A DNA stretch of 64,000 nucleotides from Edaphobacter lichenicola. Lineage in GTDB: Bacteria; Acidobacteriota; Terriglobia; Terriglobales; Acidobacteriaceae. Below, piece by piece: positions 5,155-62,598 of the stretch. A program made the position numbers and the translations under genes. Below the pieces are notes generated by a model, which did no database searches, was not told the origin of the DNA, and saw only the letters and a program-made list of their open reading frames with translations. The DNA is taken from NCBI RefSeq assembly GCF_014201315.1, contig NZ_JACHDY010000001.1, positions 496,001-560,000 of the forward strand, in the 5' to 3' direction. Every line of letters begins with the position of its first letter. Position 1 is the first letter of the stretch.

Positions 5155-6231
5155 ATGTCACAAATTATTCCTGAGACGATGCGTGCTGCGGTCTATCGCG
5201 GTGTAGATGATGTTCGGGTTGAGACGATTGCGGTGCCGGAGATCGGTGACGGCGAGGTGTTGGTAAAGATCCACACCTGTGGGATCTGCGGGACGGACTT
5301 GAAGAAGATTCATAGTGGTTCGCATGATGCGCCGCGCGTCTTTGGGCATGAGATGGCGGGGACGATTGTGCAAGTGGGTGCCGGGATTGAGGGGTTCGCT
5401 TTAGGAGATCGGGTGATGGCTTATCATCACATTCCTTGTGGCGAGTGCTATTACTGCCGCAAACAGACGTTCGCGCAATGTGAGGTTTATAAGACGGTCG
5501 GGTGTACTGCGGGGTTTGCGCCCTCTGGCGGCGGCTTTGCTGAGTACATTCGCGTGATGGACTGGATTGTGCGACGTGGGTTGGTGAAGATTCCGGACGA
5601 TGTTCCGTTTGAGCAGGCGGCGTTTCTGGAGCCGGTGAATACCTGCTATAAGGCAATTCAGTTGCTCAATTTGAAGGCAGATGAGACGGTGCTGGTGATT
5701 GGCCAAGGACCGATTGGAATTTTGCTGGCTGCGCTGGCACGACGGACGGGAGCTAATGTTCTGACAAGTGATCTGTATAAAGAACGGCACGCTGTGGCAG
5801 CGAAGTTTGGGTTGGATCGTCCTGTTGATGCTCGTGAAGATGTTGTTGCGGCAGCGAAGGCGGCTACTGAAGGTCGTGGTGCGGATGTGGCTCTGTTGGC
5901 GGTTGGCAGCGATGCGCTGATCAAAGTTGCCATGGAGTCGATCCGGCCGGGCGGACGAGTGGTGCTGTTCGCCTCGACGCAGCATGGGGAGGCGCCGTTC
6001 GATCCTGCGGCTGTATGTATGGACGAGAAGACGTTGATGGGGTCTTACAGTGCGTCGGTGGCGATACAGGATGAAGTGACGCGGATGGTGTTCGACGGCT
6101 ACCGTAACGGATTCGATCTGACGAACCTGATCTCGCACCGGTTTTCACTGGAGGATGCGGTGACGGCTATCGATCTGGCGTCGCATCCTCAGGCTGGTTC
6201 GATGAAGATTGTGATTCAGCCTGGAGGCTAG
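5155..6231 (+). CDS. zinc-dependent alcohol dehydrogenase (MDR family)
   Basis: Medium-chain dehydrogenase of 358 residues, similar to sorbitol or threonine dehydrogenases. The catalytic zinc ligands are in CGICGTDLK and the GHE motif (GHEMAGTI). Structural zinc cysteines are spread over CGECYYCRKQTFAQC. The nucleotide fold has GQGPIG. It sits at the end of the hopanoid operon; a role in hopanoid side-chain redox chemistry is an inference from position only. The ATG at 5155 is preferred to the TTG at 5152. Its last 4 bases overlap the end of the convergent response regulator gene. Confidence 0.88.
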   Translation: MSQIIPETMRAAVYRGVDDVRVETIAVPEIGDGEVLVKIHTCGICGTDLKKIHSGSHDAPRVFGHEMAGTIVQVGAGIEGFALGDRVMAYHHIPCGECYYCRKQTFAQCEVYKTVGCTAGFAPSGGGFAEYIRVMDWIVRRGLVKIPDDVPFEQAAFLEPVNTCYKAIQLLNLKADETVLVIGQGPIGILLAALARRTGANVLTSDLYKERHAVAAKFGLDRPVDAREDVVAAAKAATEGRGADVALLAVGSDALIKVAMESIRPGGRVVLFASTQHGEAPFDPAAVCMDEKTLMGSYSASVAIQDEVTRMVFDGYRNGFDLTNLISHRFSLEDAVTAIDLASHPQAGSMKIVIQPGG

Positions 6232-7673
6232 TCGCGGGTGCGCTTCTTGACCTCTACGTTGAGGCGCTTGATCTTCTGGTTGAGAGTCGAGAGAGGAATC
6301 TTGAAGTACTCTGCGGCTTCGGTCTGGTTCCAGTGGCAGCGCTCGAGACGGTCGGAGATGATGCGACGTTCGATCTCTTCCATCAGGTCGAAGAGGCTGG
6401 CGTTGGGCTGGTGGTCGAGCAGGCTGGCCGAGTAGGTTCCGCCTGTGAGTTGAGTGGGCAGCAGGTCTGGATTAATGCTGCGGGAGGTGGAGAGGACGAC
6501 GCCACGCTCCATGGCATTCTCAAGCTCGCGAACGTTGCCGGGCCACTCGTAGTCCATGATGATTCGCATCGCCTCGGGTGAGAGGGTGCGGGTCTCGGTA
6601 CCGTTTTCTTCTGCGTAAAACTTGAGAAAGTGAGCGGCGAGCAGAGGGATGTCTTCGCGGCGGGAGCGGAGGGGCGGGAGTTCGAGGCTGATGACGTTGA
6701 GGCGGTAAAAGAGATCCTCGCGGAAGCGGCCTGCGCGGACGGCGTCCTGCAAGTTGACGTTGGTTGCGGCGATGATGCGGACGTCAACCTGGATCTCCTG
6801 CACGCCGCCGAGATGCATGAAGCGACGGTCTTGAAGTACGCGGAGGATCTTGGCCTGCATGTCCATCCCCATGGTGCCGATCTCGTCGAGGAAGAGCGTG
6901 CCACCGTTGGCGACTTCGAAGAGACCTTTCTTGGCTGTGACGGCGGAGGTGAAGGCGCCTTTGACGTGTCCAAAGAGAGTGGATTCGAGCAGCTCGGATG
7001 GCACGGCACCGGTGTTGACGGGCACGAAGGGACGATCCTTGCGAGGGGAGTTGGCGTGGATGGCCTTCGCGATGAGCTCTTTGCCGGTGCCGCTTTCACC
7101 CTGGATGAGAACGGTTGAGCGGCTGGGCGCGACTTGTGCGATGAGGTCGAAGAGGCGAAGCATCGGCTCACTCTTTCCGACGATGTTTTCAAAGTTGTAG
7201 CGCTGCTTGAGGGTGCGCTTGAGTTGAACGACCTCTTCTTCGGCGCGATGGCGGGCGACGGCGGCGCGAATGTCGGCGAGTAGCTTCTCGTTGTCCCACG
7301 GCTTCTGGACGAAGTTTTCTGCGCCGGCGCGGATGGCGTCGACCACGTTGCCGACCGTGCCGTAGGCCGTAATCATGATGACGGGAAGGTTGGGCTGCAT
7401 CTCGACGATGCGGGGGAGGAGATCCAATCCGCTTTCGCCGGGCAAGGCGAGGTCGAGGAGGAGCAGGTCGTACTCGTTGCGTGAGAGAAGTTCGATGCCG
7501 GAGGGGCCATCGCTGGCGATACTGACCGTAAAGCCCTCGAGGGTGAGCAGGGTATCGAGCGATTCACGGATAGCGGCTTCGTCATCGATGATGAGGATGC
7601 GGGGATCGCCGACGACTCGGGCGGTACGTTGGAGATGGAGGGTTTCGGCGGCGAGCTCGGTAATTTCAGACAT
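6228..7673 (-). CDS. sigma-54 dependent response regulator, NtrC type
   Basis: The 481-residue protein has an N-terminal receiver domain (acidic pair IIDDE, phospho-acceptor in LLLLDLALPG, then KPW). A sigma-54 AAA+ domain follows with Walker A GESGTGKE, the sigma-54 contact loop GAFTSA and Walker B FLDEIG. A short Fis-like helix-turn-helix ends the protein. The start at 7673 is chosen because AGGAAGG lies 6 bp upstream; it overlaps the end of the kinase gene by 8 bp. It is therefore the cognate partner of that kinase and activates sigma-54 promoters, but its targets are not visible here. Confidence 0.95.
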   Translation of the reverse strand: MSEITELAAETLHLQRTARVVGDPRILIIDDEAAIRESLDTLLTLEGFTVSIASDGPSGIELLSRNEYDLLLLDLALPGESGLDLLPRIVEMQPNLPVIMITAYGTVGNVVDAIRAGAENFVQKPWDNEKLLADIRAAVARHRAEEEVVQLKRTLKQRYNFENIVGKSEPMLRLFDLIAQVAPSRSTVLIQGESGTGKELIAKAIHANSPRKDRPFVPVNTGAVPSELLESTLFGHVKGAFTSAVTAKKGLFEVANGGTLFLDEIGTMGMDMQAKILRVLQDRRFMHLGGVQEIQVDVRIIAATNVNLQDAVRAGRFREDLFYRLNVISLELPPLRSRREDIPLLAAHFLKFYAEENGTETRTLSPEAMRIIMDYEWPGNVRELENAMERGVVLSTSRSINPDLLPTQLTGGTYSASLLDHQPNASLFDLMEEIERRIISDRLERCHWNQTEAAEYFKIPLSTLNQKIKRLNVEVKKRTRD

Positions 7674-10641
7674 GCATCGCCTTCCTGTCAACAATTGCAG
7701 ACTCGCTCTTCGGTCCATCCGCTATCACGGCAGGGCGAGCGGCTGAGGTGGGGAACTCCAACTGGAAGGCGGTGCCGACGCCGATTTCGCTCTCGACGTG
7801 GATCTTGCCGGCGTGCTCCTGCATGATGCCGTAGCTGACGGCGAGGCCGAGGCCGGTGCCCTTGTGCTCGCCCTCCTGCGGCTTGGTCTTGGTGGTAAAG
7901 AAGGGATCGTAGATGCGGTGGAGATGCTCTTTTTCGATGCCGTTGCCGGAGTCCTGAATGCGGACGATGACGCGGCCGGCGCCATTGAAGGTTGCGATCT
8001 TGAGCGTCGCGTTGGCGGTTCCGAACATCGCGTCCTTTGCGTTCAACATGAGGTTCAGAATGACCTGTTGAAGCTTGCCCTGGTTGCCGTGAATGCGGGC
8101 GAGGTGCGGGTCGAAGTTGGTTTCGACGCGGATCTGTGCGGTCTTGAACTGATGCTCAAGCAAGGTGACGGTGTCGCGGAGAAGCTCGTTGAGGTTGAGG
8201 GGAGCGAACTCGGCGCCGCTGGTGCGGGAGAAGTTGAGCAGACCATTGACGATCTCGGAGGCGCGGAAGGTCTGCTGAGTGATCTTTTCGAGCACGGGGG
8301 CAAGGCGCTCATCGTCGCGCATGTGCTTGGTGAGCATCTGGGTGTAGCTGGAGATGACTGCGAGGGGAGTGTTGACCTCGTGTGCGACCCCTGCGGCGAG
8401 CAGACCGATGGAGGAGAGTTTTTCGGCTTGAGTGAGCTGGGCTTCGAGCTGAATGCGGTCGGTGATGTCGTCAACGAGAATGATGCGACCTACAGCGACG
8501 AAGTTACGCGTGACCAGTGGGGCGATGGCGATGTTGGCGATGCGGACCTTTCCGTCGGGAAGTACGAGGCGGAACTTGTAGAGGGTGTGGGTGCCGTGTT
8601 CCTCGCGCACACTGTTGAAGCGGGCTACGAAGTCCGGCGGCAGGACGGCAGAGAGAGGTTGGCGCAGGACCTCATTGCGCGACTTCGAATACATGCCCTC
8701 CATCTGGGTGTTCCAGCTTTCGATACGGTCGTCGAGGTCGACGGCGAAGACGCCGATGTTGATGGACTCGACGATGTTTTCGTGGAACTCCTTGAGGCTT
8801 TCGAACTCGGTGATCTTCTGTTCGAGGCGGCGGTAGAGCTGCGCGTTTTGAATGGCGATGCCGATGTAGCCGGCGAGGGATTCGAGCAACTCCATGTCTT
8901 CGCTGGAGAGGAAGTCTCCGTCGTCAGTGCGGCCGAGACCGATGACAGCGACGGTGCGGGTACCACCGCCTTCGCGGTTGGCGACGCGGCAGGGAAGGTA
9001 GTAGTTGAGATCGAGGCGGCCGGCGCTTTGGCGCTGGGCTTCGGGGAGGCGCAGGACCTGCTGGGGGTTCTCGAGGAAGATGTGGTTGTTGGCTCCGGGC
9101 CGGTCGAAGTCCAGGAAGCGAACATCGAGGCTGCGGAGTTCGGCGGAGTGGAGGTTGGTGAGACCGTGGGAGGCGGCCAGATCGAAGTGTCGTGGGGTGA
9201 AGCTGCCTTCACTCTCCGAGGCGAGAAAGACTGCGACGCGAGTGACGAGGAGAGTCTGGGGAAGGCGCTCCACGATGGAGTCCAGCAGGGCGCGAAGGTC
9301 GGTTTGGGCGTTGATGCCGCGGCCAAACTCAACGAGGGTCTCGCGGTAGTCGAAGCGCTTCTGATCGAAGACACGGTCGACTCGCGCCTGAATCATGCGC
9401 TTGAGCGGATCGAAGACGATGCCGGCGATGATGATGGCGGCGAGCAGTCCCCAGACGCCGAGGCTGGAGAGTCGAGTGTGGACGATCTCGCCGGTGAGCG
9501 CGATGACGCCGAAGTAAACGCCGACGAGGGATGCGGTGGCCAAGGTGTAGGTGACGCCGCGCTTGAAGATGAGATCGACGTCCATGAGCCTGTAGCGGAC
9601 GATGGCCCAGCTGAAGGTGAGGGGAAGGACGACGAGAGAGAGACCTGCGATCTTGGCGATCTGGCTGTTGACCGACCAGTCAGCCAGGTAGGGGATGACG
9701 TAGAGCAGGGTGAAAGGCGTGACAGCGATGAGGGTGCCGCGCGTGAGCCATTTGAGTTGCTGACGCTCGAGAGCAGACTCCGCCCAACGGTAACGCAGTC
9801 GGAAGACGATGGCGGCGATTACGTAATAGAGTGCCAGGTAGCCAAGGGCGATTTGATCGAGCCGGTGGAGTAGAACCTCAGTCGCGGACCAGAAACTTAT
9901 CGCTGTGTACTGCAAACCGATGAGAAAAAGCCCTGGGAGGTAGAGCAACACACAGCCGATGCGGCGGCGCAGACGGTTGCGTTGGTCGGAGGCGAAGTTA
10001 TCGGAGAAGCTGACCGCGAAGTGCAGAAAGAGGGCCGGTTGAAGCGCCTGCGCCGCCATGTTGCCCCAGTAGATGTACCAGTCGAAGGTGCCAGGTTCGC
10101 CGGTAGATCGGAAGCTGTAGAGGACAAACGAGGCAAGGCAGAAGACGTAGAAGTGGACAGACTTTGGAGCGGTCCAGCGCCGGAACAGGACGTAGATGCC
10201 GATGCAGAGATACACCAGCGCGATGAAGCGGAGCCCCTGATTGATGGAGCGGTCTTTAGGCTCAAGAATGACCTGGATGTCGAGCTTGGTCGCGCCGTGC
10301 AGGTCGATGGACTGGGGAACCGGTCGAAGGATGGAGTACGTGGCGTGGGCCCAGATGCCGCTGCGAAACATCTCCCGGGTGAGAGAGGCGACGCGTGGGG
10401 TTGGCTGGTCGTCGACACTGACGAGGATGTCGCCGGTGCGTATGCCGGCGCGATGGCCTGGGGAGAGCGCTGGAACCCGCTCAGCCCGGAGGCCGGTGAC
10501 CGCCTCGACCCACCAGATGCCGTCGGTTGGGACGTCGAAACCGCTCTCCCGATCGAAGTTCATGGCCGCAAGGACGCAGGCGGCGACGGTCGCAACTGCG
10601 AGTACGATAGCCAGAATGCGAGTTTGGGAGGCGTTTTTCAT
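7666..10641 (-). CDS. PDZ-7TM-GAF-PAS hybrid sensor histidine kinase
   Basis: A large membrane kinase of 991 residues. The order is: one N-terminal membrane anchor; a PDZ-like region (about 45-115, with SPGHRAGIRTGDILVSVD); about seven or eight membrane helices (about 130-400); a GAF domain; a PAS domain (from about ESINIGVFAVDLDDRI); HisKA with the phospho-His in GVAHEVNTP; and an ATPase domain with NLMLNAKDA, DSGNGI and GTGLGLA. The layout recalls PrsK-type kinases, which pair with NtrC-like regulators. Here the regulator overlaps its 3' end. The signal is unknown. Confidence 0.93.
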   Translation of the reverse strand: MKNASQTRILAIVLAVATVAACVLAAMNFDRESGFDVPTDGIWWVEAVTGLRAERVPALSPGHRAGIRTGDILVSVDDQPTPRVASLTREMFRSGIWAHATYSILRPVPQSIDLHGATKLDIQVILEPKDRSINQGLRFIALVYLCIGIYVLFRRWTAPKSVHFYVFCLASFVLYSFRSTGEPGTFDWYIYWGNMAAQALQPALFLHFAVSFSDNFASDQRNRLRRRIGCVLLYLPGLFLIGLQYTAISFWSATEVLLHRLDQIALGYLALYYVIAAIVFRLRYRWAESALERQQLKWLTRGTLIAVTPFTLLYVIPYLADWSVNSQIAKIAGLSLVVLPLTFSWAIVRYRLMDVDLIFKRGVTYTLATASLVGVYFGVIALTGEIVHTRLSSLGVWGLLAAIIIAGIVFDPLKRMIQARVDRVFDQKRFDYRETLVEFGRGINAQTDLRALLDSIVERLPQTLLVTRVAVFLASESEGSFTPRHFDLAASHGLTNLHSAELRSLDVRFLDFDRPGANNHIFLENPQQVLRLPEAQRQSAGRLDLNYYLPCRVANREGGGTRTVAVIGLGRTDDGDFLSSEDMELLESLAGYIGIAIQNAQLYRRLEQKITEFESLKEFHENIVESINIGVFAVDLDDRIESWNTQMEGMYSKSRNEVLRQPLSAVLPPDFVARFNSVREEHGTHTLYKFRLVLPDGKVRIANIAIAPLVTRNFVAVGRIILVDDITDRIQLEAQLTQAEKLSSIGLLAAGVAHEVNTPLAVISSYTQMLTKHMRDDERLAPVLEKITQQTFRASEIVNGLLNFSRTSGAEFAPLNLNELLRDTVTLLEHQFKTAQIRVETNFDPHLARIHGNQGKLQQVILNLMLNAKDAMFGTANATLKIATFNGAGRVIVRIQDSGNGIEKEHLHRIYDPFFTTKTKPQEGEHKGTGLGLAVSYGIMQEHAGKIHVESEIGVGTAFQLEFPTSAARPAVIADGPKSESAIVDRKAMHV

Positions 10642-52951: not shown

Positions 52952-53312
52952 TTAGACGTTTCGACCTCGCTTTTCATAGCCGAGCTTCTGACTGTTCGTG
53001 TTCACCTTCGGCGTGAAGTACGTGTCTTGCTGTGCCTTGATGAGGGCAAGAGAGTGGCCTAAGCGTTTGTTCTCGACGATCGCGGTATGGCTGACTCTCT
53101 GATCCTTGCTGAAGACGCGATAGGGAAGCAAGAGGCCCTTGGTGCGGACTTCCAAGCGGCCATATGGGAAGTCGTAAACGTCAACATACTTGCCCTCAAG
53201 TCCTTCGGAGAGAGAATTTCGCTCCAGGATGATCCGCTTACCGGCCCGAACTTCCGCCAAAACCTGTATCCGTTTTACATCCCGCTCATTGAAATAAGTC
53301 CCATCCCGTTAG
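52952..53312 (-). pseudogene. ISNCY-family transposase, internally deleted
   Basis: The frame reads TYFNERDVKRIQVLAEVRAG (typical N-terminus) and jumps into the C-terminal part: YGRLEVRTKGLLLPYRVFSK, then AIVENKRLGHSLALIKAQQD. The central DDE region of several hundred residues is absent. The end QKLGYEKRGRNV lacks the usual basic tail. Confidence 0.7.
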
Positions 53313-53360
53313 TGTCGTTTCTAATGGGCGTAACCATGTCATTTCTAAAGAGCGTCTACA
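53313..53360 (-). repeat. ISNCY terminal repeats
   Basis: Two 24-bp direct repeats lie just upstream of the remnant: TGTCGTTTCTAATGGGCGTA at 53313 and TGTCATTTCTAAAGAGCGTC at 53337. The pattern TGTCRTTTCTAA fits ends of ISNCY elements, not the Tn7-like element. Confidence 0.55.
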
Positions 53361-53408
53361 TTAGAACTATACATAATATGTGTTATCGGACATACATGCA
53401 GTCTCCTG

Positions 53409-53428
53409 CTAGCCTGCGGCGGCACGGG
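53409..53428 (-). other. severed 3' end of the AHSA1 gene
   Basis: The minus strand encodes RAAAG then stop TAG (53409-53411). Joined to 61043 through the shared ACGGG, it continues the AHSA1 frame as LLEAFARAAAG, a typical end for this family. It was separated by the transposon. Confidence 0.9.
53424..53428. repeat. target site duplication ACGGG, left
   Basis: The 5 bp directly before the element; identical to 61038-61042. Confidence 0.93.
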
Positions 53429-53479
53429 TGTCGGATACAGAAGTCATTGAGACTGAACACAAGTGCCTGAGACTGAGTC
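53429..53479 (+). repeat. transposon left end with TnsB-type sites
   Basis: Terminal TGTCGGATACAGAAG followed by TTGAGACTGAACA. A second site, ACACAAGTGCCTGAGACTGA, starts 20 bp further in (53457), giving two tandem sites with the core TGAGACTG. Confidence 0.88.
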
Positions 53480-53526
53480 GGGGGGATATCACTACTATCT
53501 CCTCGGCCGTCCTAGGATCGCCTGAT

Positions 53527-54030
53527 TCAACGCACGAGTGATTCGTGGAGGCAACGGATTATCTCTTTTCCGTCTTCATATGCTTGCACCACCTCGGTCC
53601 AAGTAGCCGTCCCAATAGTCGCAGAGTGTGCGAAACCATGCCGCCAGAGAATGATGTTCTTGTAAGACGCTCGAATATCTCGACGCTGTGTTCGCAGTGT
53701 CGTCCTAGCAGTTTGGTCAATCTTTTTATCAAATCTCTCTTTGTATTTCAGTCCCAGCGGAAAAATGTAGTTCGGCTTGAGAGAGTCCAACTGAATTCTG
53801 CCGTTCATCCTCTCACAGCTGTGCCGAATAAAACTTCCCAACACCTGATGTTTTTTATCTGCAAAGGTCGTGAGAATCTCTTTGATCGCCATCTCAAATA
53901 CTGTTACGCATGCGACAGCGACAAAGCCGACATATTTCGCTTCGAGAAGAGGATCCAAAGTAGGACCACGAAGACTCCCAAGGTGGGCGATGATTCTGTC
54001 AGCATGCACAAAGTGGGATTGATAAGCCAT
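53527..54030 (-). CDS. HEPN-domain protein (predicted RNase), cargo
   Basis: The 167-residue all-helical protein carries the HEPN signature RHGFAH (R130, H135, Rx4H), preceded by the polar helix QRRDIRASYKNIILW. It resembles the MAE_28990/MAE_18760 HEPN-like nucleases, which are often next to DUF262 genes. The start follows the DUF262 stop directly (TAG-ATG), so the two are translationally coupled. It likely cuts RNA on infection, but the target is unproven. It ends 98 bp from the left transposon end. Confidence 0.85.
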   Translation of the reverse strand: MAYQSHFVHADRIIAHLGSLRGPTLDPLLEAKYVGFVAVACVTVFEMAIKEILTTFADKKHQVLGSFIRHSCERMNGRIQLDSLKPNYIFPLGLKYKERFDKKIDQTARTTLRTQRRDIRASYKNIILWRHGFAHSATIGTATWTEVVQAYEDGKEIIRCLHESLVR

Positions 54031-55116
54031 CTACTTCTCCATGAACACTTTGCGAACGAGCGCAAACCGATCTTGGAGAACCTTGGCATCACTCGAGCCC
54101 GGCCGCGTCCATGCTTCAAAGTCATTTGATTTCAAGAGCCGTTGTCTTTTCCCTTCTAGTCCATGTTTTGGCAATTTAGCGTAATTCTCAATAAGGATCG
54201 CGGTTATCGAATCAAGCGCTGCGATGTTTATAGGCCCTCGTATATGAAACGGGCGCTCACCCATTTGCTCTACGATCAGTTTGGTAACTTTTGGGAAAAT
54301 ACTCTGAAAATCAATGGCCTTTTGAGTTCGCCCCTTCCGATTAGTGCTCATTGCCTTGTTTAGGAATTCTTTCATCGGCTTTTCATATTTGTCTGCCGAG
54401 CCAACTAGTGCAAATACCCGAAGAAGGAACTCGACATCCCTTTGGCGTCTATCAATAGATTTTCTACCTAGAATCTTGCGCCAGTTCTCATCACGATTGA
54501 GACGCTTCAGGATCTTGGTGAGTTCTCCCCTGAAAACTACGTTTCTAATCTCTTGTGGTCGTAGTGGCGTTCCGCCTGTATTTAAGCGTTCGAAGATGTG
54601 ATACGCGCTAGTTCCCTCACCTTGTGGGCTGAGTTGTCTGATGTTCACTGCTCTCAGAACTGTTTGCTTGAGCTTTCTCTGGTCGGCTTCGTCAAGATCA
54701 ACGAATCGCTTATTTACGTAAGGGTTTTTGTCTCCAATGCCTCGCAGGCGAAAGACAGAACGCTTTCCGTGGGTGCTTTCTCGACCGAAATATCCTTCCA
54801 TGAAAAAGACAACACTGAGTATTCGCTGTTGCCCATCGATGACAAGGTTTTTGTTTTCCTCATCGATGTAGAAGAATACTGACGGCACTGGAAGCCCACA
54901 CAGGAAAGAATCGATGAGAAGGGATGATTGTTGTATAGTCCAGACAAACTCTCGTTGGAACTCGGGGATAACGATGTCACCGTTGTTCCACATCTCATTA
55001 ATGCCGGAGAGGGTGTAATCGGACGGATACGTGGCGATGTCGTAGGACATCGGTACAGCTTCCTCATCAATCGATTCGTCATCTTCCGTGATTAGATCTT
55101 CCGGATCTTCAGCCAC
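54031..55116 (-). CDS. DUF262 protein, cargo
   Basis: The 361-residue protein has a ParB-like DUF262 domain: SGINEMWNNGDIVIPEFQRE, then LVIDGQQRILSVVFFMEGY, in which DGQQR (about residues 94-98) is the family motif, and later ERLNTGGTPLRPQEIRN. A C-terminal helical half follows, with no HNH nuclease as in GmrSD. The GTG at 55116 is chosen for GGAGAGG upstream and for the acidic N-terminus; the frame is open further to 55149. It pairs with the downstream HEPN gene and is lower in GC than the tns genes. Confidence 0.88.
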   Translation of the reverse strand: MAEDPEDLITEDDESIDEEAVPMSYDIATYPSDYTLSGINEMWNNGDIVIPEFQREFVWTIQQSSLLIDSFLCGLPVPSVFFYIDEENKNLVIDGQQRILSVVFFMEGYFGRESTHGKRSVFRLRGIGDKNPYVNKRFVDLDEADQRKLKQTVLRAVNIRQLSPQGEGTSAYHIFERLNTGGTPLRPQEIRNVVFRGELTKILKRLNRDENWRKILGRKSIDRRQRDVEFLLRVFALVGSADKYEKPMKEFLNKAMSTNRKGRTQKAIDFQSIFPKVTKLIVEQMGERPFHIRGPINIAALDSITAILIENYAKLPKHGLEGKRQRLLKSNDFEAWTRPGSSDAKVLQDRFALVRKVFMEK

Positions 55117-55317
55117 AATGCCTCTCCAAAGGAATTCTAAGTAGCACAATGTTTTGATCTTAGCCGATTAGACGGGGAAAAGCTGTTGTCTAGACGGATG
55201 CCGTTGCTTCCTAACGAGCGGCTTTGCGTAACAACAACCCTAGCATGGTGGACCTAGGAATAAGGCACAGCTACGCGTTGCGGCACAGTTGGCCGAGGCC
55301 ACGCGGATCTCGAGTAA
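55117..55317. other. gap between zinc-ribbon and DUF262 genes
   Basis: About 200 bp, AT-rich, no gene seen. It may hold the cargo promoter. Confidence 0.4.
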
Positions 55318-55575
55318 TCACTTGTGCTCACCTATACAGAGAGAGATCCACCTCAATTTGTAGTTGTGTCCGACATGCCAGCCCAAACCGTGGCAGCATT
55401 TGTAAGAGTCGATGAGATCGGGCCTACGCGCACCAGGTGCCCCCTTGAGCCGTTCGACCTCCTGCTCGGCCAGCTCCCGCGTGCCCCACGCGATCTTGGA
55501 ACAGGTTTCACAGTAATTCCCTTGAGCCTCCGGCGATCGTCGAGTCCGGCGACGCTTGCCCCGCTTTCGTGACAT
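55318..55575 (-). CDS. small zinc-ribbon protein downstream of tniQ
   Basis: An 85-residue protein with a very basic start (SRKRGKRRRTRRS). The core has YCETCSK (C22, C25) and, about 35 residues on, YKCCHGLGWHVGH (C60, C61, H67, H70), probably one zinc. Similar small proteins with a CxxC...C..C.GWHxGH pattern are seen in other bacterial genomes. The ATG at 55575 has AGGAGG 9 bp upstream, which lies inside the tniQ 3' end; tniQ stop (55577-55579) is 1 bp away. So it is co-translated with tniQ. Role unknown; target binding is a guess. Confidence 0.75.
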   Translation of the reverse strand: MSRKRGKRRRTRRSPEAQGNYCETCSKIAWGTRELAEQEVERLKGAPGARRPDLIDSYKCCHGLGWHVGHNYKLRWISLCIGEHK

Positions 55576-55576
55576 G

Positions 55577-56677
55577 CTAATTGCCTCCTGCCTGAGTCTC
55601 GGAAGCGATTTCGGTGACTGCCCGTGCTGGGGGGTTCTTCGTCAGAGCCTTAATCCGATAGGTTCCAGTGTCGATTTCGTGCCAGGCGTATCCCGCCATG
55701 ACGACCTCATTAAACCAACGAACCGAGATCGCATTCCGATTGAGTGCCGGATACGACACCTCCGCCGTCCTAGCGCAATCGACAAATCGCGTCGGCCATT
55801 CCTCTGTTAGCCAAATTGCAGCTTCCAAGGCCAATACTCGTGCATGGACAGCAAGCTCTTCGAAGTGCAGCATTTCTGCATCTGGTTCATAGGGAAGCGG
55901 GACATCAACGCGAGGCAGGCCTGAGCGATCAGCTATGACCTGCCGGAACCGCTCGAGCCCAAGGTTCTGGCCCACAATCAGGCTGACTATGTGTCGCAGC
56001 ACGGCAAAGTAGTCCGCAGTTCCCTTCTCCGCCGACTCTAGCTTCAGGGTCAAGGCTTCCTGGCGTTGGACAAGCGAGTCGTCTGCTACTACTGCCAGCG
56101 CATGTCTCAGATCAAATTGGCAATTACGGCAGCGCTCCATCCGGAGCAGATATTCCATGCGTGGGTCGTCCCGAAGCCCCCACAGGCCCTGGACCGATGC
56201 ATGGATCGATGCTCGACATTCCGGACAGCGGTCCACGAGCAGGACACGATGCACTGGGCAACAGCAGATGAAGGCAATCCGCCATTGCCAACGGAAATAA
56301 GGCTCGCTGGAGTTCAGGCAAAGTGGGCAAAACTGAAAGCCGGCGATGGCACCGCTCCGGTGAGATCTCCCGATGGGGATCAGCCATGGCCACTCTGGCG
56401 TATTGATCCTCAGTCTGTCACTGTGCAGGGCGGACATTCGGCGTCTGAGCAGGGTGGCACGGCCGGCGATGGGATCTGTCCCAGTCACCTTGCATACGCT
56501 TCTGACCAGAATGTCGGATGCAACCCGATCGATGTCGCTGTTATGAAGGTGCCGAGCTAGACCCAGGATCTGGAGGAAGTCACAGAACTGCATACAATAT
56601 GTACAGCCTAGACGGATCAACCAGGACGAGAATAGCTCATCCGGCAGCGGCTTGGGCCGACATGGCAAAAGATACAT
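55577..56677 (-). CDS. tniQ: TniQ family target-selection protein
   Basis: The 366-residue TniQ protein has an N-terminal LPDELFSSWLIRL box. Two zinc sites: CPLC (117-120) with C/H at about 139-143, and CPEC (151-154) with CRNC (183-186). A helical C-terminal half follows. TniQ proteins link TnsC to the target chooser. At 366 residues it is longer than the minimal TniQ of CRISPR-associated systems and shorter than TnsD. It starts 2 bp after the tnsC stop. Confidence 0.92.
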   Translation of the reverse strand: MYLLPCRPKPLPDELFSSWLIRLGCTYCMQFCDFLQILGLARHLHNSDIDRVASDILVRSVCKVTGTDPIAGRATLLRRRMSALHSDRLRINTPEWPWLIPIGRSHRSGAIAGFQFCPLCLNSSEPYFRWQWRIAFICCCPVHRVLLVDRCPECRASIHASVQGLWGLRDDPRMEYLLRMERCRNCQFDLRHALAVVADDSLVQRQEALTLKLESAEKGTADYFAVLRHIVSLIVGQNLGLERFRQVIADRSGLPRVDVPLPYEPDAEMLHFEELAVHARVLALEAAIWLTEEWPTRFVDCARTAEVSYPALNRNAISVRWFNEVVMAGYAWHEIDTGTYRIKALTKNPPARAVTEIASETQAGGN

Positions 56678-56679
56678 GG

Positions 56680-57567
56680 TCAGATCACCGCCATTGCATG
56701 TTTCCTGCGCGCTGAAGGTGGAATCCAGTGCAGCCGGTCCAGGACTGCATCGCAGATCCGCTCCTCGCCCCCAAGGATCGCCTCAGCCATAGCGCGTTGT
56801 ATCAGGGTCGATAGCTCTCCTACTGTTCCCTCCGACATCGAGTGCAGACGTTGAGCGAGTCGAGGATCCGCTAAATCGGACGGTTTTTGCAACGGCAATT
56901 CCATCTCGAATGTGGCCAAAAATCTGCGCCACTCATTCGTGCATTTCCAGCGCGGGATCTCGAGCGGTTGGAACCGGTTTTCAATCTGGCTGTCACTCTG
57001 AACAGCGCAGAGAGCTTGGCGCGTTCCCGCCCCGATCATTGGGACCAACAACTCATTACCGATGTACTTCAGCGTGTTAAGGAAGGCATGATGCTTCTTG
57101 GTGCTTCCAGACAGGATGTGGTGAATTTCGTCGATCACCAACATCTTCAGCCCGACCCGTGGAAGCAGATTCCTTACCTGGTAGAAAAGCTCGCTGGTTC
57201 GAAAGGAGCGCCGGTGGAAAACACCGATGGCGTCCAGGAGAGCCGCGTAAAACCTTTGCTCATCAGGTAGAGGCGGTGCCTGGACATAGACGATGGGAAT
57301 GATAGCCGCTTCCTGGTGTGGATCATTACTGGAAGGGTGGAGCGACATGAAATGACGAATGATCGCGGTCTTCCCGTTGTTTGTTTCGCCGACCAGTAGC
57401 CGGTTTGGCATCCTGTGAACTTTTGGGTGGGTCAGCAGGGAGTTCAGCTCTGCAATGATCTGTTCAGCTGCCGGGTAGCACACAAATCGATCATGAAGGG
57501 AGTACCGGCTTCTCGCGATATCGGACAAATCAAGAGCTGTGCGGGCGTGCTCGGTTAGCTGGGTCAT
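56680..57567 (-). CDS. tnsC: TnsC/TniB AAA+ ATPase
   Basis: The 295-residue ATPase that joins target selection to the transposase. Walker A is GETNNGKT (residues 60-67) and Walker B LVIDEIHH (D146, E147). The size is close to TniB of the Tn5053 type rather than the much longer Tn7 TnsC. The start overlaps the tnsB stop (ATGA), so the two are coupled. Confidence 0.94.
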   Translation of the reverse strand: MTQLTEHARTALDLSDIARSRYSLHDRFVCYPAAEQIIAELNSLLTHPKVHRMPNRLLVGETNNGKTAIIRHFMSLHPSSNDPHQEAAIIPIVYVQAPPLPDEQRFYAALLDAIGVFHRRSFRTSELFYQVRNLLPRVGLKMLVIDEIHHILSGSTKKHHAFLNTLKYIGNELLVPMIGAGTRQALCAVQSDSQIENRFQPLEIPRWKCTNEWRRFLATFEMELPLQKPSDLADPRLAQRLHSMSEGTVGELSTLIQRAMAEAILGGEERICDAVLDRLHWIPPSARRKHAMAVI

Positions 57568-59435
57568 AGCTGCTCCACTCGGAACGGAGAGACTGGACTA
57601 TCGTCGAAGGGCTCAACTGAGCCGGCGGAGAAATCCTGGGCTTCTGAGATCTCCCGGGCTTCTGGTTCTTGCACTGTCTCTTCCGGCTTCGAAGATCCCG
57701 CGCGTTTTCGTTCCAGCAGCAATCGGCGCTTAACTGCCTTCGTCTGTTTGACTGCGCTGCGCGCCTGCTCCATAAGCTCCAAGTGTTTGTGGAACAGTAG
57801 GTTCTCGTCGATGTACCGCCGACCTTCTGTCACAAGCTTCCTATTCGCCTCGCGCAGTTCCCAGATGCTCATCGGCCCCCGCGACGTGTCTAAGTAGGGG
57901 ATTTCTTGATATTCATTGTCTTCAGGATTTAGAAAGAACACCCGGCTGATATCGCGGGGGTCACGTGCAAAGCTGAACTGCCGGGAGCGGGTCTTCCCTT
58001 CCTCGCGGCTACCAATAAACCTGTTTAGTTCAGGCCCGTAGTAGCGGATGTAGTCGATTTCTACGCCGGTCCGTTGAATAGTTCGATACACAACGGGCAT
58101 GAAGTCTTTCTGGAGGCGATCTATATCAAAGAGGACTGGTGGCAACGGGCGGCCGTTGGGCTCCATGAATCCCTCCGTAAAGCGTTTGAGGGGGGACTTC
58201 TGAATGCCACGATGAAATTGATTGTGGTAGATCTCCACAATCCACTTTCCAATCGCCTGTTCAAGTTCGCCCAACGTAAAACAGGCCTTCGCCGCGGAAG
58301 GGTATTCTCCCTTGTCTGGAACGCTGGAGAAGGTCGTCCCCGGGAGTTTGTGAAGCCAATCGTTCAAAGTTCGATAGAAACGCTCCACGTGACCGCCAAA
58401 GTGGGGCTGGCCCACCGGTCGGAAGTTGAGTTCGATTCCGTACCGTTCGCATGCGCGCCTGAGCATGTCCCCTCGAAACTCCTTAGCATTGTCAACGTGA
58501 ATGCAATCCATCCGTCCCCAGCACGGCCAATCACCCTCGATGCCGCGCTCCGCAAGCCATGTATCTTTGCGCATCATGGAATGGGCGATGCATAAGCCGG
58601 TAGAAATAGCACCAACTGGGTCAAGTGATATGTAAAAGCCCATGACCATCCGACTGTAGACGTCGAATCCCAGAGTGATCCACGGCCTACAAGTGGCCCC
58701 GCGATCAATATCATCGACGAGAATGACGTCGAGTTTCGTGTGATCGATCTCAACGATCGAGAGAGGGTACGTCGCGCCTTCAAACTTGGTCGGTCGAGGC
58801 CGAAAGCGCTCAGCAGCCTTCTTCCCTTTCCTTTTCCGGGCGACAACCTCCGCAGAGACCTGATGAACACGGCTTGCAATCGTGTTCACATGGGGCGCTG
58901 GTAGTCCCGCAACGTCGCAGGCTCGTCGGACCTCCCTCGCCACATCTTTGATCTTAAGCTTCTGCTTATTAAGGTAGTGGCATTCTATCGAGCTTGTAAT
59001 TAGCTCATCAACGTCAGGACGAAGACGACTCTTGCCCCGCCCGCCGTCGGATTTCAAAGGCACCAGGGCCTCTTCCCGGCCATGCAGGTCCCATGCTGCG
59101 AGGCGGCGGTAGATTGTCGAGGGGTGAATTTTATATTCCGCGGCCCTGTTCAGAACTAAGTCACGTGATCGGTCAGCGGGATTGCGAAGAGGGCGAATAC
59201 ACTCCATCCACTTCCCTGCCTGAGTTTGGTCGCGTCCCCCGAGCGGTAAGGCCATCTGGCGACCATGCTCTTCTACTATTAGCGGCGGTTTCAGGTCGGC
59301 TATCGGTACCATGCACTTTTCCCGCCGATCTGCGGAACGAACGCAAGCCCGGTCAGTCCCGAAAGTTGCAATCAGCTCCCAGTTCCGGTCTTTGTAACCA
59401 ACAACGGAGCCGGGATAGAGATTCAAGACGGGCAT
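57564..59435 (-). CDS. tnsB: TnsB DDE transposase
   Basis: The 623-residue transposase. An N-terminal Mu-type domain and a helix-turn-helix (NRAAEYKIHPSTIYRRLAAW) are followed by the catalytic core with D231 (VEIDHTKLD), D315 (IHVDNAKEF) and E351 (GHVERFYRT). The end is basic and polar, where TnsC contact is expected in the family. All three catalytic residues are present, so it should be active. It starts 4 bp after tnsA. Confidence 0.95.
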   Translation of the reverse strand: MPVLNLYPGSVVGYKDRNWELIATFGTDRACVRSADRREKCMVPIADLKPPLIVEEHGRQMALPLGGRDQTQAGKWMECIRPLRNPADRSRDLVLNRAAEYKIHPSTIYRRLAAWDLHGREEALVPLKSDGGRGKSRLRPDVDELITSSIECHYLNKQKLKIKDVAREVRRACDVAGLPAPHVNTIASRVHQVSAEVVARKRKGKKAAERFRPRPTKFEGATYPLSIVEIDHTKLDVILVDDIDRGATCRPWITLGFDVYSRMVMGFYISLDPVGAISTGLCIAHSMMRKDTWLAERGIEGDWPCWGRMDCIHVDNAKEFRGDMLRRACERYGIELNFRPVGQPHFGGHVERFYRTLNDWLHKLPGTTFSSVPDKGEYPSAAKACFTLGELEQAIGKWIVEIYHNQFHRGIQKSPLKRFTEGFMEPNGRPLPPVLFDIDRLQKDFMPVVYRTIQRTGVEIDYIRYYGPELNRFIGSREEGKTRSRQFSFARDPRDISRVFFLNPEDNEYQEIPYLDTSRGPMSIWELREANRKLVTEGRRYIDENLLFHKHLELMEQARSAVKQTKAVKRRLLLERKRAGSSKPEETVQEPEAREISEAQDFSAGSVEPFDDSPVSPFRVEQL

Positions 59436-59439
59436 AGCA

Positions 59440-60096
59440 TCACCTCACCCAAATGGTCGTTTCGGGCCCAAAAGGCATCTCGAAATCCGAAGAAATCATG
59501 CGCTTCGCGATGGCACTCCAGATGACTTGCCTTGGGTCGACCGTGTGGTAATTCCACGTTTGGCTAGTGAGGAAAGCCCTAACGGTGGTTCGCCCTGCCG
59601 ACCGGAGCGCAGCCACAACCTCGTCGAGCATGGCTGCCGACAGGTCAGAATTCAAGAATGGGCGCACGAACTTCGCATTTGTAAGCGGGATACACGACAG
59701 GCACGCTTCGCTGACGATATGGAACTGGGAATTCCGTCTGGTTGCCTCACGAAACCCGGCGCGCAGTTTCTGCCTGATCTTCGGCCAGTTCTCTGCTAGG
59801 TCACTACGGTACTTGGTTTCCACAATCCAGGGGCGCGTGACGTCTCTTCCCAAGAAGCGGCCGCTCGTGAACTCGATGTGGAAGTCGGGGACATAAACCT
59901 GATCGACACCAGTTTCGTCGATAAATCGGATCTTCATAGGCTGCTCCGAGAACCATCGAACAGCTGGGTGCATATCCAGGAGCAATATGAAGTCGCGCTC
60001 GAGGATCGAATCGAATTGAACGAGCCTCTTAAGTCGAAGGCTATAAAACAGCCCAGTGACGTTTTGGTAGCTCTTCTTGAGTTTTCTGACAGGCAT
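59440..60096 (-). CDS. tnsA: TnsA endonuclease
   Basis: The 218-residue TnsA cuts the 5' strands at the transposon ends, allowing cut-and-paste movement. The restriction-like active site is complete: E33 (FDSILERDF), D71 (YVPDFHIEF) and E93/K95 (IVETKYR). A C-terminal winged-helix part follows, which in the family contacts TnsC. Confidence 0.93.
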   Translation of the reverse strand: MPVRKLKKSYQNVTGLFYSLRLKRLVQFDSILERDFILLLDMHPAVRWFSEQPMKIRFIDETGVDQVYVPDFHIEFTSGRFLGRDVTRPWIVETKYRSDLAENWPKIRQKLRAGFREATRRNSQFHIVSEACLSCIPLTNAKFVRPFLNSDLSAAMLDEVVAALRSAGRTTVRAFLTSQTWNYHTVDPRQVIWSAIAKRMISSDFEMPFGPETTIWVR

Positions 60097-60392
60097 CTAT
60101 TTTTCCCTACCAACCGTTTATGACGGTTTACATTCGGCTATGCCAAGCAGGATGTACTCCTTATAAATATCCTGTCAAGTGTCCTATTTACTGATAGTTA
60201 CACCGCTTTTGCGATTTGACAGGGGCTGAGATTTGCCTCACCTGACTTAATGTCAGGTTGAAGGCCGCAAAATTGCGGGCTGTCAGCTTCTGTTGTAGTT
60301 AATCATGTCCTCCACGACGTGTAACTTTTCTTAAACTATTTGATTAGCCAGCCTCTTGACTTCCACGAAGGATTGATTAACCTTATTGCTGT
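60097..60392. promoter_or_regulatory. divergent promoter region with several palindromes
   Basis: No gene. Inverted repeats: AACCGT/ACGGTT (60112-60128), CCTGTCAA/TTGACAGG (60171-60178 with 60216-60223), ACCTGAC/GTCAGGT around TTAAT (60240-60258) and CCGCAA/TTGCGG (60265-60278). The minus strand has a possible -35 TTGACA at 60178-60173 for tnsA. The plus strand has TTGACT at about 60356 for the winged-helix gene. Confidence 0.55.
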
Positions 60393-60875
60393 ATGAGCCG
60401 TCAAGAGGTTCGACACGCCATCGATCAGTGGGAACAAGACCTTCTTAGTAGGAGGTCAGGGCTGAGCGCCCAGATGAGACACCTTCAGGAGGAGCTGGCC
60501 AGTATCGAGCGCGTACTCATTGATCTGGTCAAGCTACGTGGGGAGGTAGAAATCGTAGCTTGCGATTCGGAACCGCCAGATCCTCCCATTCCAAGCCTTA
60601 CAGAGCATGTTCGAAGACTGGTAGCGGTGACCACGATCCCTCTGCTGGCAACACAGATTCGGGACTCGTGCGAAGCAGTTGGTATTCAGGCGTCTTCCCG
60701 GAAGAACCTTCTTATTCAGGTTCACACTGCCCTGCAAAGGATGAGGTTAGATGTCAGGAGGGTGAAGATTGATGGGAAGGGTGCCTACCTACCCCGAATT
60801 CCCTTTAGGAGTACGGTCGCTCCGCCCCGAATGCCATCGGTTACCAATCACCGCAGTAACTCCGGAGTGGGTTAG
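60393..60875 (+). CDS. coiled-coil winged-helix protein in transposon
   Basis: The 160-residue protein starts with a coiled coil (MRHLQEELASIERVLIDLVK). The C-terminal half looks like a winged helix: LTEHVRRLVAVTTIPLLATQ then SRKNLLIQVHTALQRM. It is divergent from the tns operon and followed by a hairpin and the right end. By position it could be a repressor of the tns operon or a DNA-binding targeting factor; both are guesses. Confidence 0.75.
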   Translation: MSRQEVRHAIDQWEQDLLSRRSGLSAQMRHLQEELASIERVLIDLVKLRGEVEIVACDSEPPDPPIPSLTEHVRRLVAVTTIPLLATQIRDSCEAVGIQASSRKNLLIQVHTALQRMRLDVRRVKIDGKGAYLPRIPFRSTVAPPRMPSVTNHRSNSGVG

Positions 60876-60920
60876 CGCTAGGGAGGCTTCGTAACCTAGA
60901 AACGCGTCTTTTCCCTAGCG
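60876..60920 (+). terminator. 9-bp inverted repeat after winged-helix gene
   Basis: CGCTAGGGA (60876-60884) pairs with TCCCTAGCG (60912-60920), 1 bp after the stop, with a 27-bp loop. The right arm overlaps a TnsB-type site. Confidence 0.4.
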
Positions 60921-61037
60921 TCGCAGTCTCAATGCCTGGCGTAATCTGTCTTCCCGGTCTCAAGAACTTAAGTGTCTAGTCCCCACAGCTTCTGTTCCCC
61001 GCGGCATGTTTAGTCTCAACGGCTTCTGTTTCCAACA
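60918..61037 (-). repeat. transposon right end with TnsB-type sites
   Basis: On the minus strand: terminal TGTTGGAAACAGAAGCC with TTGAGACTAAACA (61007-61037). A second, AACAGAAGCTGTGGGGACTA, is at 60996-60973. Two weaker sites (AGTTCTTGAGACC at 60968 and AGGCATTGAGACTG at 60937) follow inward. Confidence 0.85.
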
Positions 61038-61517
61038 ACGGGCGAACGCCTCCAGGAGCCTCCCCCAATCGCCTTCCGTGTCGAAGATTCGACGCATCTC
61101 ATCGCGACGTGCCCCATAGCGATCAAGATGACGATGCTCCAGTTCGACGAGTGTATGCTCGCCACCGCCAGCTCTGAAGCGCACCTCGATTTCAGTCTTC
61201 AGGTTTGGGTCATACTGCCAGTCGGCGCTGATATCCCACGAGAGGACCAGCCGCGAGTGCGGTTCCCACGCGAGTACACTGCCCCACTGACAGATGCTGC
61301 CATCGTCGCCTTGCTCGTACCAGCGGCCCCCGACGCGTGGCTCGATCACCGCGTCCACTGCATCGGCTTTTCCGATTTTGTAGTATGCCAGCGGCCACCA
61401 CGCGCCCATCTTCTCGGTGAACACCCGCCACGCCACCACCTGCGGCGCCTGAACGCTCACGACCTTCCGAACGCTATTGGGATCGACACCGGCGGGCGTC
61501 TTCGGCTCTGTCTTCAT
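60960..61517 (-). CDS. AHSA1/SRPBCC protein, C-terminus replaced by transposon
   Basis: The protein has 185 residues: 160 native, then 25 encoded by the transposon end (CWKQKPLRLNMPRGTE and beyond). The SRPBCC fold shows as KVVSVQAPQVVAWRVFTEKM, EPRVGGRWYEQGDDG and LVLSWDI, ending GRLLEAFAR at the junction. Such proteins often follow ArsR and DinB genes. Function of the fold is binding of a small hydrophobic ligand. The native tail (AAAG, stop) now lies at 53409-53423. Confidence 0.92.
   Translation of the reverse strand: MKTEPKTPAGVDPNSVRKVVSVQAPQVVAWRVFTEKMGAWWPLAYYKIGKADAVDAVIEPRVGGRWYEQGDDGSICQWGSVLAWEPHSRLVLSWDISADWQYDPNLKTEIEVRFRAGGGEHTLVELEHRHLDRYGARRDEMRRIFDTEGDWGRLLEAFARCWKQKPLRLNMPRGTEAVGTRHLSS
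61038..61042. repeat. target site duplication ACGGG, right
   Basis: Identical to 53424-53428 and directly next to the right TIR. Confidence 0.93.
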
Positions 61518-61567: not shown

Positions 61568-62191
61568 CTAGCTCTTTGGGAAGTTTGGGTCCGCCTTCAC
61601 TTCATTAATCTGCTTGAGGTGACGCTCGCTGTGTGCCGCAATAAAGAGAACAAATTCATACCCATCCATTTTGCCCACCGGTCCATCCATCACGTGATCG
61701 CGCAGCCCAGACGTGGTCTTTAGATATTCCTCGGTCGTCGCGCGGCTCTCGAGAAAATGTTTCACGGATCCCTCTGGCGAACCATAGCGGTTGGTGGGGA
61801 CCAGTGGCCCTGGCGCCTGAGCCTTGTGACTGCGGTCAGGAACCATCGCCATCACCGCTTCGTCGGTCTTCGCTAGATCGCGTCCAGGCGGCCCCGAGGG
61901 CGAGACCATGACCTTTTTCTTCAGCAAGTTGTCGCGGATAAAGTCCTCCGACGCAGCGATGTGTTCCATGACCTGCGCCACAGACCAACGATCTGGGGCC
62001 GGTTTGAAGTTCCATTGCGCCTCGGAAAGCCCTCTGGTGGCTTCGAGGACATTCGCCTTTGTGGATTCCAGATAGTGTACTGCCCGGTCTCTTCCCGCCT
62101 TCGTTAGTTCTTGTGCTCCGGCGGCCACTGTCCCAGTCACCAAAAGCAACAGCAACGCGAAGATTGTCTCCGTCAGGGATTTGTTCCTCAT
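61568..62191 (-). CDS. DinB family protein with signal peptide
   Basis: The 207-residue protein has a signal peptide (TIFALLLLLVTGTVAAGA). The DinB four-helix bundle carries the usual His triad in WSVAQVMEHIAASE and AAHSERHLKQI. AGGAGA precedes the ATG at 62191; the upstream frame is longer. It lies between arsR and the AHSA1 gene on one strand and is probably part of that operon. Confidence 0.88.
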   Translation of the reverse strand: MRNKSLTETIFALLLLLVTGTVAAGAQELTKAGRDRAVHYLESTKANVLEATRGLSEAQWNFKPAPDRWSVAQVMEHIAASEDFIRDNLLKKKVMVSPSGPPGRDLAKTDEAVMAMVPDRSHKAQAPGPLVPTNRYGSPEGSVKHFLESRATTEEYLKTTSGLRDHVMDGPVGKMDGYEFVLFIAAHSERHLKQINEVKADPNFPKS

Positions 62192-62244
62192 TTCGGTTCT
62201 CCTTTTGTGCCATCGGATGCTTCTTGGTCTCAGAAACTTATCAT

Positions 62245-62598
62245 TCATACGAGCTCCCCTTTCTTCGTCTTCCTGGGTTTCAGTTCTTTGACTGCTTCTC
62301 GTTCGGCGGCTTCCTTAAACGCAAGGAGCGCTTGGTCCCAGAATCCCTCCAGCCACTTCCGCAGCGACTCTATGCCCCGTGTGTCGACTGCGTAGACCCG
62401 TCGCGTGCCCTCCGCATGAACAGTCACCAGCCGTGCCGTCTTGAGGATCTTCAGGTGCTGAGAGACTGCGGGGCGACTCACCTCCATCCCTTCGGCGATC
62501 TCGCCTACGGATCGTCCGCCGCCGCGCAGGCGCCTCAGCACCGCCCGCCGGGTAGGATCTCCCAAAGCATCGAGGGCTCGTTCTTCGTAAGTAATCAC
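62245..62598 (-). CDS. ArsR family transcriptional regulator
   Basis: The 117-residue winged-helix repressor: ALGDPTRRAVLRRL, recognition helix SRPAVSQHLKILKTARLV and wing TRRVYAVD. ArsR/AHSA1 pairs are common. The GTG start at 62598 lies within a 7-bp palindrome, which implies autoregulation. No metal cysteines are seen. Confidence 0.9.
   Translation of the reverse strand: MITYEERALDALGDPTRRAVLRRLRGGGRSVGEIAEGMEVSRPAVSQHLKILKTARLVTVHAEGTRRVYAVDTRGIESLRKWLEGFWDQALLAFKEAAEREAVKELKPRKTKKGELV

Follow-up and report, generated by a model that had tools for sequence, protein, structure and literature searches.

A TnsA-bearing Tn7-like transposon at the 3′ end of an AHSA1-domain gene of Edaphobacter lichenicola

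We describe a Tn7-like transposon of 7,609 bp at positions 53429-61037 of a stretch of the Edaphobacter lichenicola genome. This whole stretch, 64,000 nucleotides long, is called the window, and coordinates refer to it unless a locus is named. We put at roughly 85 per cent the probability that the element is structurally complete, with tnsA, tnsB, tnsC and tniQ intact, that it is inserted in the last codons of a gene for an AHSA1-domain protein and that it carries a probable anti-phage cargo. Compact TnsABC-TniQ elements are candidate minimal, RNA-free systems for site-directed insertion. Should a TniQ of about 366 amino acids (aa) suffice to read the site, four genes could make up a system that inserts DNA at a place defined by a protein.

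Ends, core genes and the interrupted gene

The left end, at 53429, begins TGTCGGATACAGAAG and the right end, at 61037, begins TGTTGGAAACAGAAG on the reverse strand. As inverted repeats the outermost 31 bp match at 26 positions, while in 40 randomly drawn pairs of 1-kb window segments the best 31-base inverted match never exceeded 23. An 18-base core recurs in the same direction within each end: four times in the first 113 bp of the right end (positions 9, 43, 65 and 96, with 18, 15, 13 and 14 of 18 bases matching) and twice in the first 46 bp of the left end (positions 9 and 29, with 18 and 14 of 18). Tn7-like ends usually have such an asymmetric layout. The rest of the element holds five single core matches at 12 or 13 of 18 on its two strands, so the right-end repeat at 13/18 is not significant alone. 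The features of the ends are as follows.

53429 to 53459, plus strand: left terminal inverted repeat, 31 bp (26/31 match with the right end)
61007 to 61037, minus strand: right terminal inverted repeat, 31 bp (26/31 match with the left end)
53424 to 53428 and 61038 to 61042, no strand: 5-bp target duplication ACGGG, an exact copy on each side
53457 to 53474, plus strand: second TnsB-site-like repeat of the left end (14/18, repeat-core comparison)
60978 to 60995, minus strand: second TnsB-site-like repeat of the right end (15/18, same comparison)
60956 to 60973, minus strand: third TnsB-site-like repeat of the right end (13/18, same comparison; one equal match elsewhere in the element)
60925 to 60942, minus strand: fourth TnsB-site-like repeat of the right end (14/18, same comparison)

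The 5-bp target duplication is of the Tn7-like kind, as are the TGT ends with their several putative TnsB sites. In the host genome the exact core occurs only at the two ends of the element; allowing up to two mismatches adds one further site, against two for a reversed-pattern control. Across 150 related genomes such two-mismatch sites are about as frequent as reversed-control sites, so we infer no sister copies there.

The four core genes lie in order on a single strand, followed by an 85-aa open reading frame (ORF), a DUF262 gene and a HEPN gene. From tnsA through the 85-aa ORF, neighbouring genes overlap or lie no more than 4 bases apart.

59440 to 60096, minus strand: tnsA, 218 aa, endonuclease (Pfam PF08722, TnsA N-terminal, E 3e-10; E33, D71, E93, K95)
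57564 to 59435, minus strand: tnsB, 623 aa, DDE transposase (Pfam Mu-transpos_C, E 5e-9; D231, D315, E351; matches to TnsB entries of the PDB)
56680 to 57567, minus strand: tnsC, 295 aa, AAA+ regulator (Pfam TniB, E 3e-65; overlaps tnsB by 4 nt)
55577 to 56677, minus strand: tniQ, 366 aa, candidate target selector (Pfam TniQ, E 3e-19; AlphaFold2 model nearest to TniQ/TnsD entries)

TnsC has a Walker A (GETNNGKTA) and a Walker B (LVIDE) motif, and the genome has a single TnsB match. A sequence search of the PDB with TnsB gives the proteins of I-F CRISPR-associated transposons (CASTs) as its best matches (Pse fusion, 3e-43; Vch Tn6677, 1e-42), followed by V-K (3e-33) and then Tn7 (2e-13). The AlphaFold2 model of TniQ, built from 19 sequences, has a mean predicted local distance difference test score (pLDDT) of 77, with residues 332-366 below 50. 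In a Foldseek search with this model two matches reach E<=0.001, a chain of the I-B CAST Cascade-TniQ-TnsC complex and the Sh V-K TniQ, and all entries down to rank 18 are TniQ or TnsD structures. The predicted protein leaves no room for the long C-terminal part of the R721 TnsD (508 aa). On this evidence a putative DDE transposase, an AAA+ regulator and a TniQ occur together, as in Tn7-like elements. The initial annotation had read this segment as a complete Tn7-like transposon with exact ends, a 26/31 inverted repeat, ACGGG on both sides, intact TnsABC-TniQ and the TnsA, TnsB and TnsC motifs listed above. The random-region control, the repeat arrays, the domain matches and the catalytic residues bear all of this out.

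The gene inventory combines the ORF list with Pfam and PADLOC scans, and the absence of TnsE and TnsF is judged by ORF size, no profile of either having been used. In this inventory only the DUF262 cargo and antisense overlapping frames exceed 170 aa apart from the core genes, so that no other gene has the size of TnsF, TnsE or a Cas protein. The ORF list, Pfam and PADLOC also gave no Cas effector gene, although no search for CRISPR repeats was made, and Pfam found no resolvase domain among the ORFs scanned.

By its genes, then, the element is TnsA-bearing and would move by cut-and-paste. Judging from the family, TnsB would bind the end repeats and join the 3′ ends to the target strands at positions staggered by 5 bp, TnsA would cut the other strands, leaving no cointegrate, and TnsC would link the target complex to TnsA and TnsB. 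More weakly, one may suppose that TniQ, with no TnsF, TnsE or Cas partner, supplies the recognition that leads to the AHSA1 3′ end.

The insertion itself, in the last codons of the AHSA1-domain gene and 15 bases from the end of that gene, is seen directly in the sequence.

61043 to 61517, minus strand: interrupted host gene, AHSA1-domain protein up to the insertion (Pfam PF08327, E 3e-10)
53409 to 53423, minus strand: 3′ remainder of the AHSA1 gene, four codons and the stop, cut off to the left of the element (joined flanks)
60960 to 61037, minus strand: part of the right end into which the AHSA1 frame now continues, adding 25 residues before a stop (translation)
52953 to 53394, no strand: decayed repeat in the left flank, an insertion sequence (IS) remnant by eye, its outer end ~35 bp from the element (pieces repeated in genus genomes)

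When the flanks are joined without one copy of ACGGG they encode a protein of 164 aa that ends LLEAFARAAAG*. Matches to the AHSA1 protein were found in 13 of 62 genus genomes and in 37 of 299 genomes of the class, the host included in both counts. We aligned 13 other copies, 12 from genus genomes and one a second copy in the host; 12 of them end 2-4 residues past the restored end, and the second copy of the host is cut by a stop. One relative in another genus of the family, 78% identical, has an uninterrupted gene that ends ...LLEAFAHVAANWKEE. Its DNA homology to the window starts at base 61042 and resumes at 62335-62562, within a small regulator gene that is ArsR-like by eye; the regulator adjoins the AHSA1 gene in the relative and is separated from it in the window by a gene at 61568-62248. 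The left flank has no alignment in this relative. The empty site that had been called for in a related genome is therefore found in part: the AHSA1 gene is uninterrupted there, but the left flank has no counterpart. No genome examined has the two flanks joined and empty; what is seen is an interrupted gene with a decayed repeat as its left flank.

Some part of that repeat is matched in 37 of 81 genomes, the host included. In two of these genomes (G035 and G018) ~0.93 kb separates its two parts, a middle that is apparently missing from the window copy. A 102-aa ORF of the repeat has no Pfam match. At 53365-53394 there is also a motif of 26-30 bp that is common in the genus, matched in 30 of 49 genus genomes (a count of listed rows). 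We found no publication that pairs a Tn7-like transposon with AHSA1 in a literature search that covered few subscription papers, which leaves novelty unproven, and the term AHSA1 does not occur in the available part of PMC10293859.

Relatives and the choice of target

Matches to TnsB were found in 17 of 150 related genomes (best-scoring other protein 39% identical), to TnsC in 12 of 399 and to TniQ in 10 of 396, the host being counted each time. A scan of GTDB genome contigs with a TnsC alignment gave 136 stretches and from these 30 named loci, in Pseudomonadota, Bacteroidota and Acidobacteriota. A scan of genome contigs with the single TnsB sequence matched 6 stretches, none confirmed as a relative, and a scan of viral contigs with the TnsC alignment gave 22 stretches and no locus.

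We searched 26 relatives for ends, considering the best three end pairs of each, and 8 had an exact 5-bp duplication. Seven were accepted. L099 was excluded although it has a duplication; the ends of L083 and L088 match at 18/30, no better than those of L099, and were kept for their TGTGA(A/G)TT-type start, which the other five share, a criterion chosen after the results were known. The seven have the same core genes as the window element, paired TG-type ends with the same 26-base layout and exact 5-bp duplications. Their end letters differ from ours, but the layout is conserved among homologues, which is what the initial annotation had asked of genuine ends. The L099 element (Geothrix, two TniQ matches), whose ends are weak and were not accepted, may stop close to what by eye resembles the 3′ part of a tRNA gene (L099:7196-7256).

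All seven delimited relatives (L078, L083, L084, L086, L088, L089 and L092) lie beside lipA, the left end at most 9 bases from the end of that gene in 7/7. Among 41 loci, in which L033 and L098 are one contig, eight have comM and ten have lipA. The latter ten, all beside the lipA 3′ end, are these seven with L076, L079 and L035; they occur in Pseudomonadota and in the window's own genus, and TIGR00510 confirmed lipA in both loci tested. In L076 and L079 lipA lies beside a gene for a protein of ~575 aa and the ends are not delimited. L035, from the window's genus, has two TniQ genes and a broken TnsB, and by eye its lipA is followed at once by an end repeat of the lipA type; the end-pair search gave no pair with a duplication there.

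A ~575-aa protein is common to all seven delimited elements, at their left end.

L078:17651-19381, L083:18746-20488, L084:17405-19135, L086:14245-15972, L088:17552-19273, L092:14256-15980: genes for the ~575-aa protein

Two members have no Pfam match, and one member matched neither PHROG nor NCBIfam. As a candidate TnsE it failed: when six members were compared with the R721 TnsE by hhalign the probability was 0.3 per cent, and we leave the protein unnamed. A search of L035 with the protein from the seven elements found no match. As L035 lies beside lipA all the same, this suggests that the protein would not be required for insertion there. By title, none of the papers among the matches listed treats lipA as a Tn7-like attachment site, in literature mostly without subscription papers; 'lipoyl synthase' with Tn7 terms gave no match, and 'lipA' does not occur in the available main text of PMC10293859 or PMC8649781.

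The TniQ tree has 34 rows, 17 with a site label (L103, L100, L090, L093 and L082 are omitted); L035 stands in it unlabelled, its lipA neighbourhood having been recognised only afterwards. The nine lipA-labelled rows fall on one side of a branch (98/99), together with nine unlabelled rows that include L035. The three site labels need 2 changes on this tree, the minimum possible, against a mean of 6.5 when shuffled. This correlation does not by itself single out TniQ because the core genes travel together, but two placements add to it. The comM locus L091 lies inside the lipA-rich groups of TnsC (96/89) and TnsB (84/95) and outside the TniQ lipA group, and the pair L032/L035 belongs to the TniQ lipA group but not to the lipA-rich group of TnsC. 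Taken together, the trees suggest that the insertion site of the relatives may follow TniQ better than TnsB or TnsC, and they fall short of showing that TniQ acts alone.

We hold it possible, tentatively, that the 366-aa TniQ gives target recognition with no TnsF, TnsE or Cas partner and led the element to the AHSA1 3′ end. The wider proposal, that a TniQ of ~330-366 aa alone is the sequence-specific selector throughout this branch, choosing the AHSA1 3′ end here and the lipA 3′ end in sister elements with different end orientations, we regard as unlikely. Were it true, a short TniQ as sole selector would add two attachment sites and contradict the partner view of small TniQ proteins. The element and its lipA and comM relatives make recognition by a short TniQ directly testable.

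Several observations weigh against such selection of AHSA1. There is one insertion, with no recurrence at AHSA1, while lipA recurs among the relatives; with a single insertion, AHSA1 is unproven as a true attachment site. The lipA relatives have their left end at the target gene, whereas here the right end adjoins the AHSA1 body, so either this element departs from the orientation rule of the relatives or the DNA that is recognised is to the left. In alignments longer than 150 residues our TniQ has no more than ~34% identity to that of any relative examined. In the TniQ tree the row closest to ours, L031 (92/83), comes from an element inserted in comM, and the seven comM rows do not form a single clade. 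The correlation of site with TniQ could also arise from core genes travelling together, with no causal part for TniQ, and the branches that place L091 and L035 are modestly supported. Finally, a partner has been proposed for small TniQ proteins (PMC10293859).

It is quite possible, at a little under even odds, that the transposon is real and its insertion untargeted or weakly targeted, an element with no TnsF- or TnsE-type partner having hit AHSA1 by chance. The ORF inventory, with no TnsF- or TnsE-sized frame besides the cargo, points this way, as do the single TnsB copy in the genome and the ~575-aa gene that all seven delimited relatives have and the window lacks. Against this, the insertion is 15 bases from the gene end, a position at which homing elements are often located, and L035 beside lipA likewise lacks the ~575-aa gene.

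Less probable, and in our view rather improbable, is that the recognised DNA lies on the left, in the end of the decayed IS-like repeat ~35 bp away, the AHSA1 3′ end having been hit as its neighbour. The lipA relatives, whose left end adjoins the target, and the genus-common motif at 53365-53394 would fit this, and Tn5053 is listed as targeting plasmid resolution sites in the available part of PMC11406308.

Place among Tn7-like elements

The TnsB and TnsC trees use R721 Tn7 as outgroup. The TnsC tree omits L103, L100, L072 and L071 (partial or split), the TnsB tree omits L082, L071 and L035, and the L032 TnsB, whose frame runs on, is trimmed to 640 residues; L098 (same contig as L033), L104, L067, L006, L034, L036 and L037 were not entered in the trees. 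In both trees the R751 Tn402 TniA or TniB lies in the same large group as the window element and R721 Tn7 lies outside it, while the Sh V-K and Vch I-F references fall outside or on very long branches (>3.5 changes per column), which makes their placement unsure. Window TnsC weakly joins the acidobacterial L031 and L082 (85/26), and window TnsB the acidobacterial L099 and L031 (94/68). Thus the trees with Tn7, Tn5053 and CAST references that had been proposed as a check show the element close to Tn402/Tn5053 and distant from Tn7, and leave the CAST references unsettled. To call it a compact form between Tn7 and Tn5053 is fair as a description; in the trees it groups with Tn402 and not with Tn7.

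A new subgroup intermediate between Tn7 and Tn5053, which the initial annotation had suggested, is decidedly improbable and finds no support in the comparison with relatives. The long terminal branches speak for it, with identities to any tree row of at most 40% (TnsB) and 47% (TnsC). However, no small starred clade holds the window element in either tree. TnsA was found by tblastn in 26 of the 30 named TnsC loci (in L104 only at E 0.001), so a combination of TnsA, a TnsC of ~300 aa and a short TniQ appears widespread; the TnsC proteins of the relatives are mostly ~290-310 aa long, most with one short TniQ. In addition, PMC10293859 already describes a Tn6022 family in which TnsABC goes with a short TniQ. 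We take the element to be a compact TnsABC-TniQ transposon that falls towards Tn5053/Tn6022 within the family and forms no private subgroup. As for the weakest alternative, that the repeats and the duplication are there by chance with no transposon, it is hardly credible beside the random-region control, the repeat arrays, the AHSA1 gene restored by joining the flanks and the uninterrupted homologue.

Comparison with known systems gives the following picture. Tn6022, as described in the available part of PMC10293859, has TnsA, TnsB, TnsC, a TniQ of ~369 aa and target site duplications, as here; it differs in lying in comM, in using TnsF and in also encoding TnsE, neither of which appears in the ORF inventory of the window. 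A comM search of the window gave no match, the host gene being AHSA1, and beside tniQ, where Tn6022 has TnsF (~498 aa), there is an 85-aa ORF. With Tn402/Tn5053 (R751 tniA-tniB-tniQ, L122) the element shares a TniB-type TnsC, TniQ and the large tree group; R751 has a recombinase gene beside tniQ and no TnsA listed, in a gene table that is incomplete, and where that group lacks TnsA and has its own resolvase, the window element has TnsA and no resolvase ORF. The unnamed lipA-side elements have the same core operon, one short TniQ in 9/10 and, in the seven delimited cases, the same 26-base end layout and 5-bp duplication; they differ in their target, the lipA end with the left end adjoining, and in the ~575-aa gene, present in 9/10 and absent here.

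The likeness to Tn7 (R721 copy, L123) is one of general plan. The right end of Tn7 adjoins the gene body, as that of the window element does. Tn7 proper has a long TnsC (555 aa in R721), a TnsD of 508 aa and TnsE, and targets the glmS 3′ end (available part of PMC11406308); here TnsC has 295 aa, TniQ has 366 aa and there is no other large core-like ORF. CASTs are set apart by Cas effectors, of which the inventory described above, made with no search for CRISPR repeats, gave none.

The comM element L031 (L031:6134-13085), from the same genus, has the nearest TniQ in the tree and a TnsC 48% identical to ours. It has TnsB, TnsC, TniQ and a resolvase gene and gave no TnsA match, which would possibly reflect a change from cut-and-paste to replicative transposition. 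Near this element a transposase-like ORF at 6134-7717 is ISL3-like by eye.

Cargo and small reading frames

The cargo and the remaining reading frames of the element are as follows.

54031 to 55149, minus strand: cargo DUF262/GmrSD_N protein, 372 aa (Pfam PF03235, E 1e-27; PADLOC NsnA, E 1e-62, and PD-T4-2_A, E 2.5e-47)
53527 to 54030, minus strand: cargo HEPN (RiboL-PSP-HEPN) protein, 167 aa (Pfam PF18735, E 2.9e-10)
55318 to 55575, minus strand: 85-aa Cys-rich ORF, one base behind tniQ (weak PHROG match)
60393 to 60875, plus strand: 160-aa ORF between the right end and tnsA, on the opposite strand (ORF list)

PD-T4-2 is listed under both DUF262 and PF18735 HEPN in the available part of a review (PMC10952713). 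The cargo has this pair of domains, a DUF262 protein adjacent to a PF18735 HEPN protein, and the Escherichia coli plasmid CP057779 carries an adjacent DUF262 and HEPN pair in the same order. The DUF262 proteins are 42% identical; the HEPN protein differs more, with 26% identity over 113 residues and no match in the PADLOC scan. By its domains the two-gene module probably acts against phages, which would make it one more likely defence module on such elements. The two cargo genes have a G+C content of 47%, against 55% in the tns genes.

A plasmid search with the 85-aa ORF gave no match. The 160-aa ORF has one weak relative besides itself in 100 genomes, and its single-sequence structure model is poor, with a mean pLDDT of 51.

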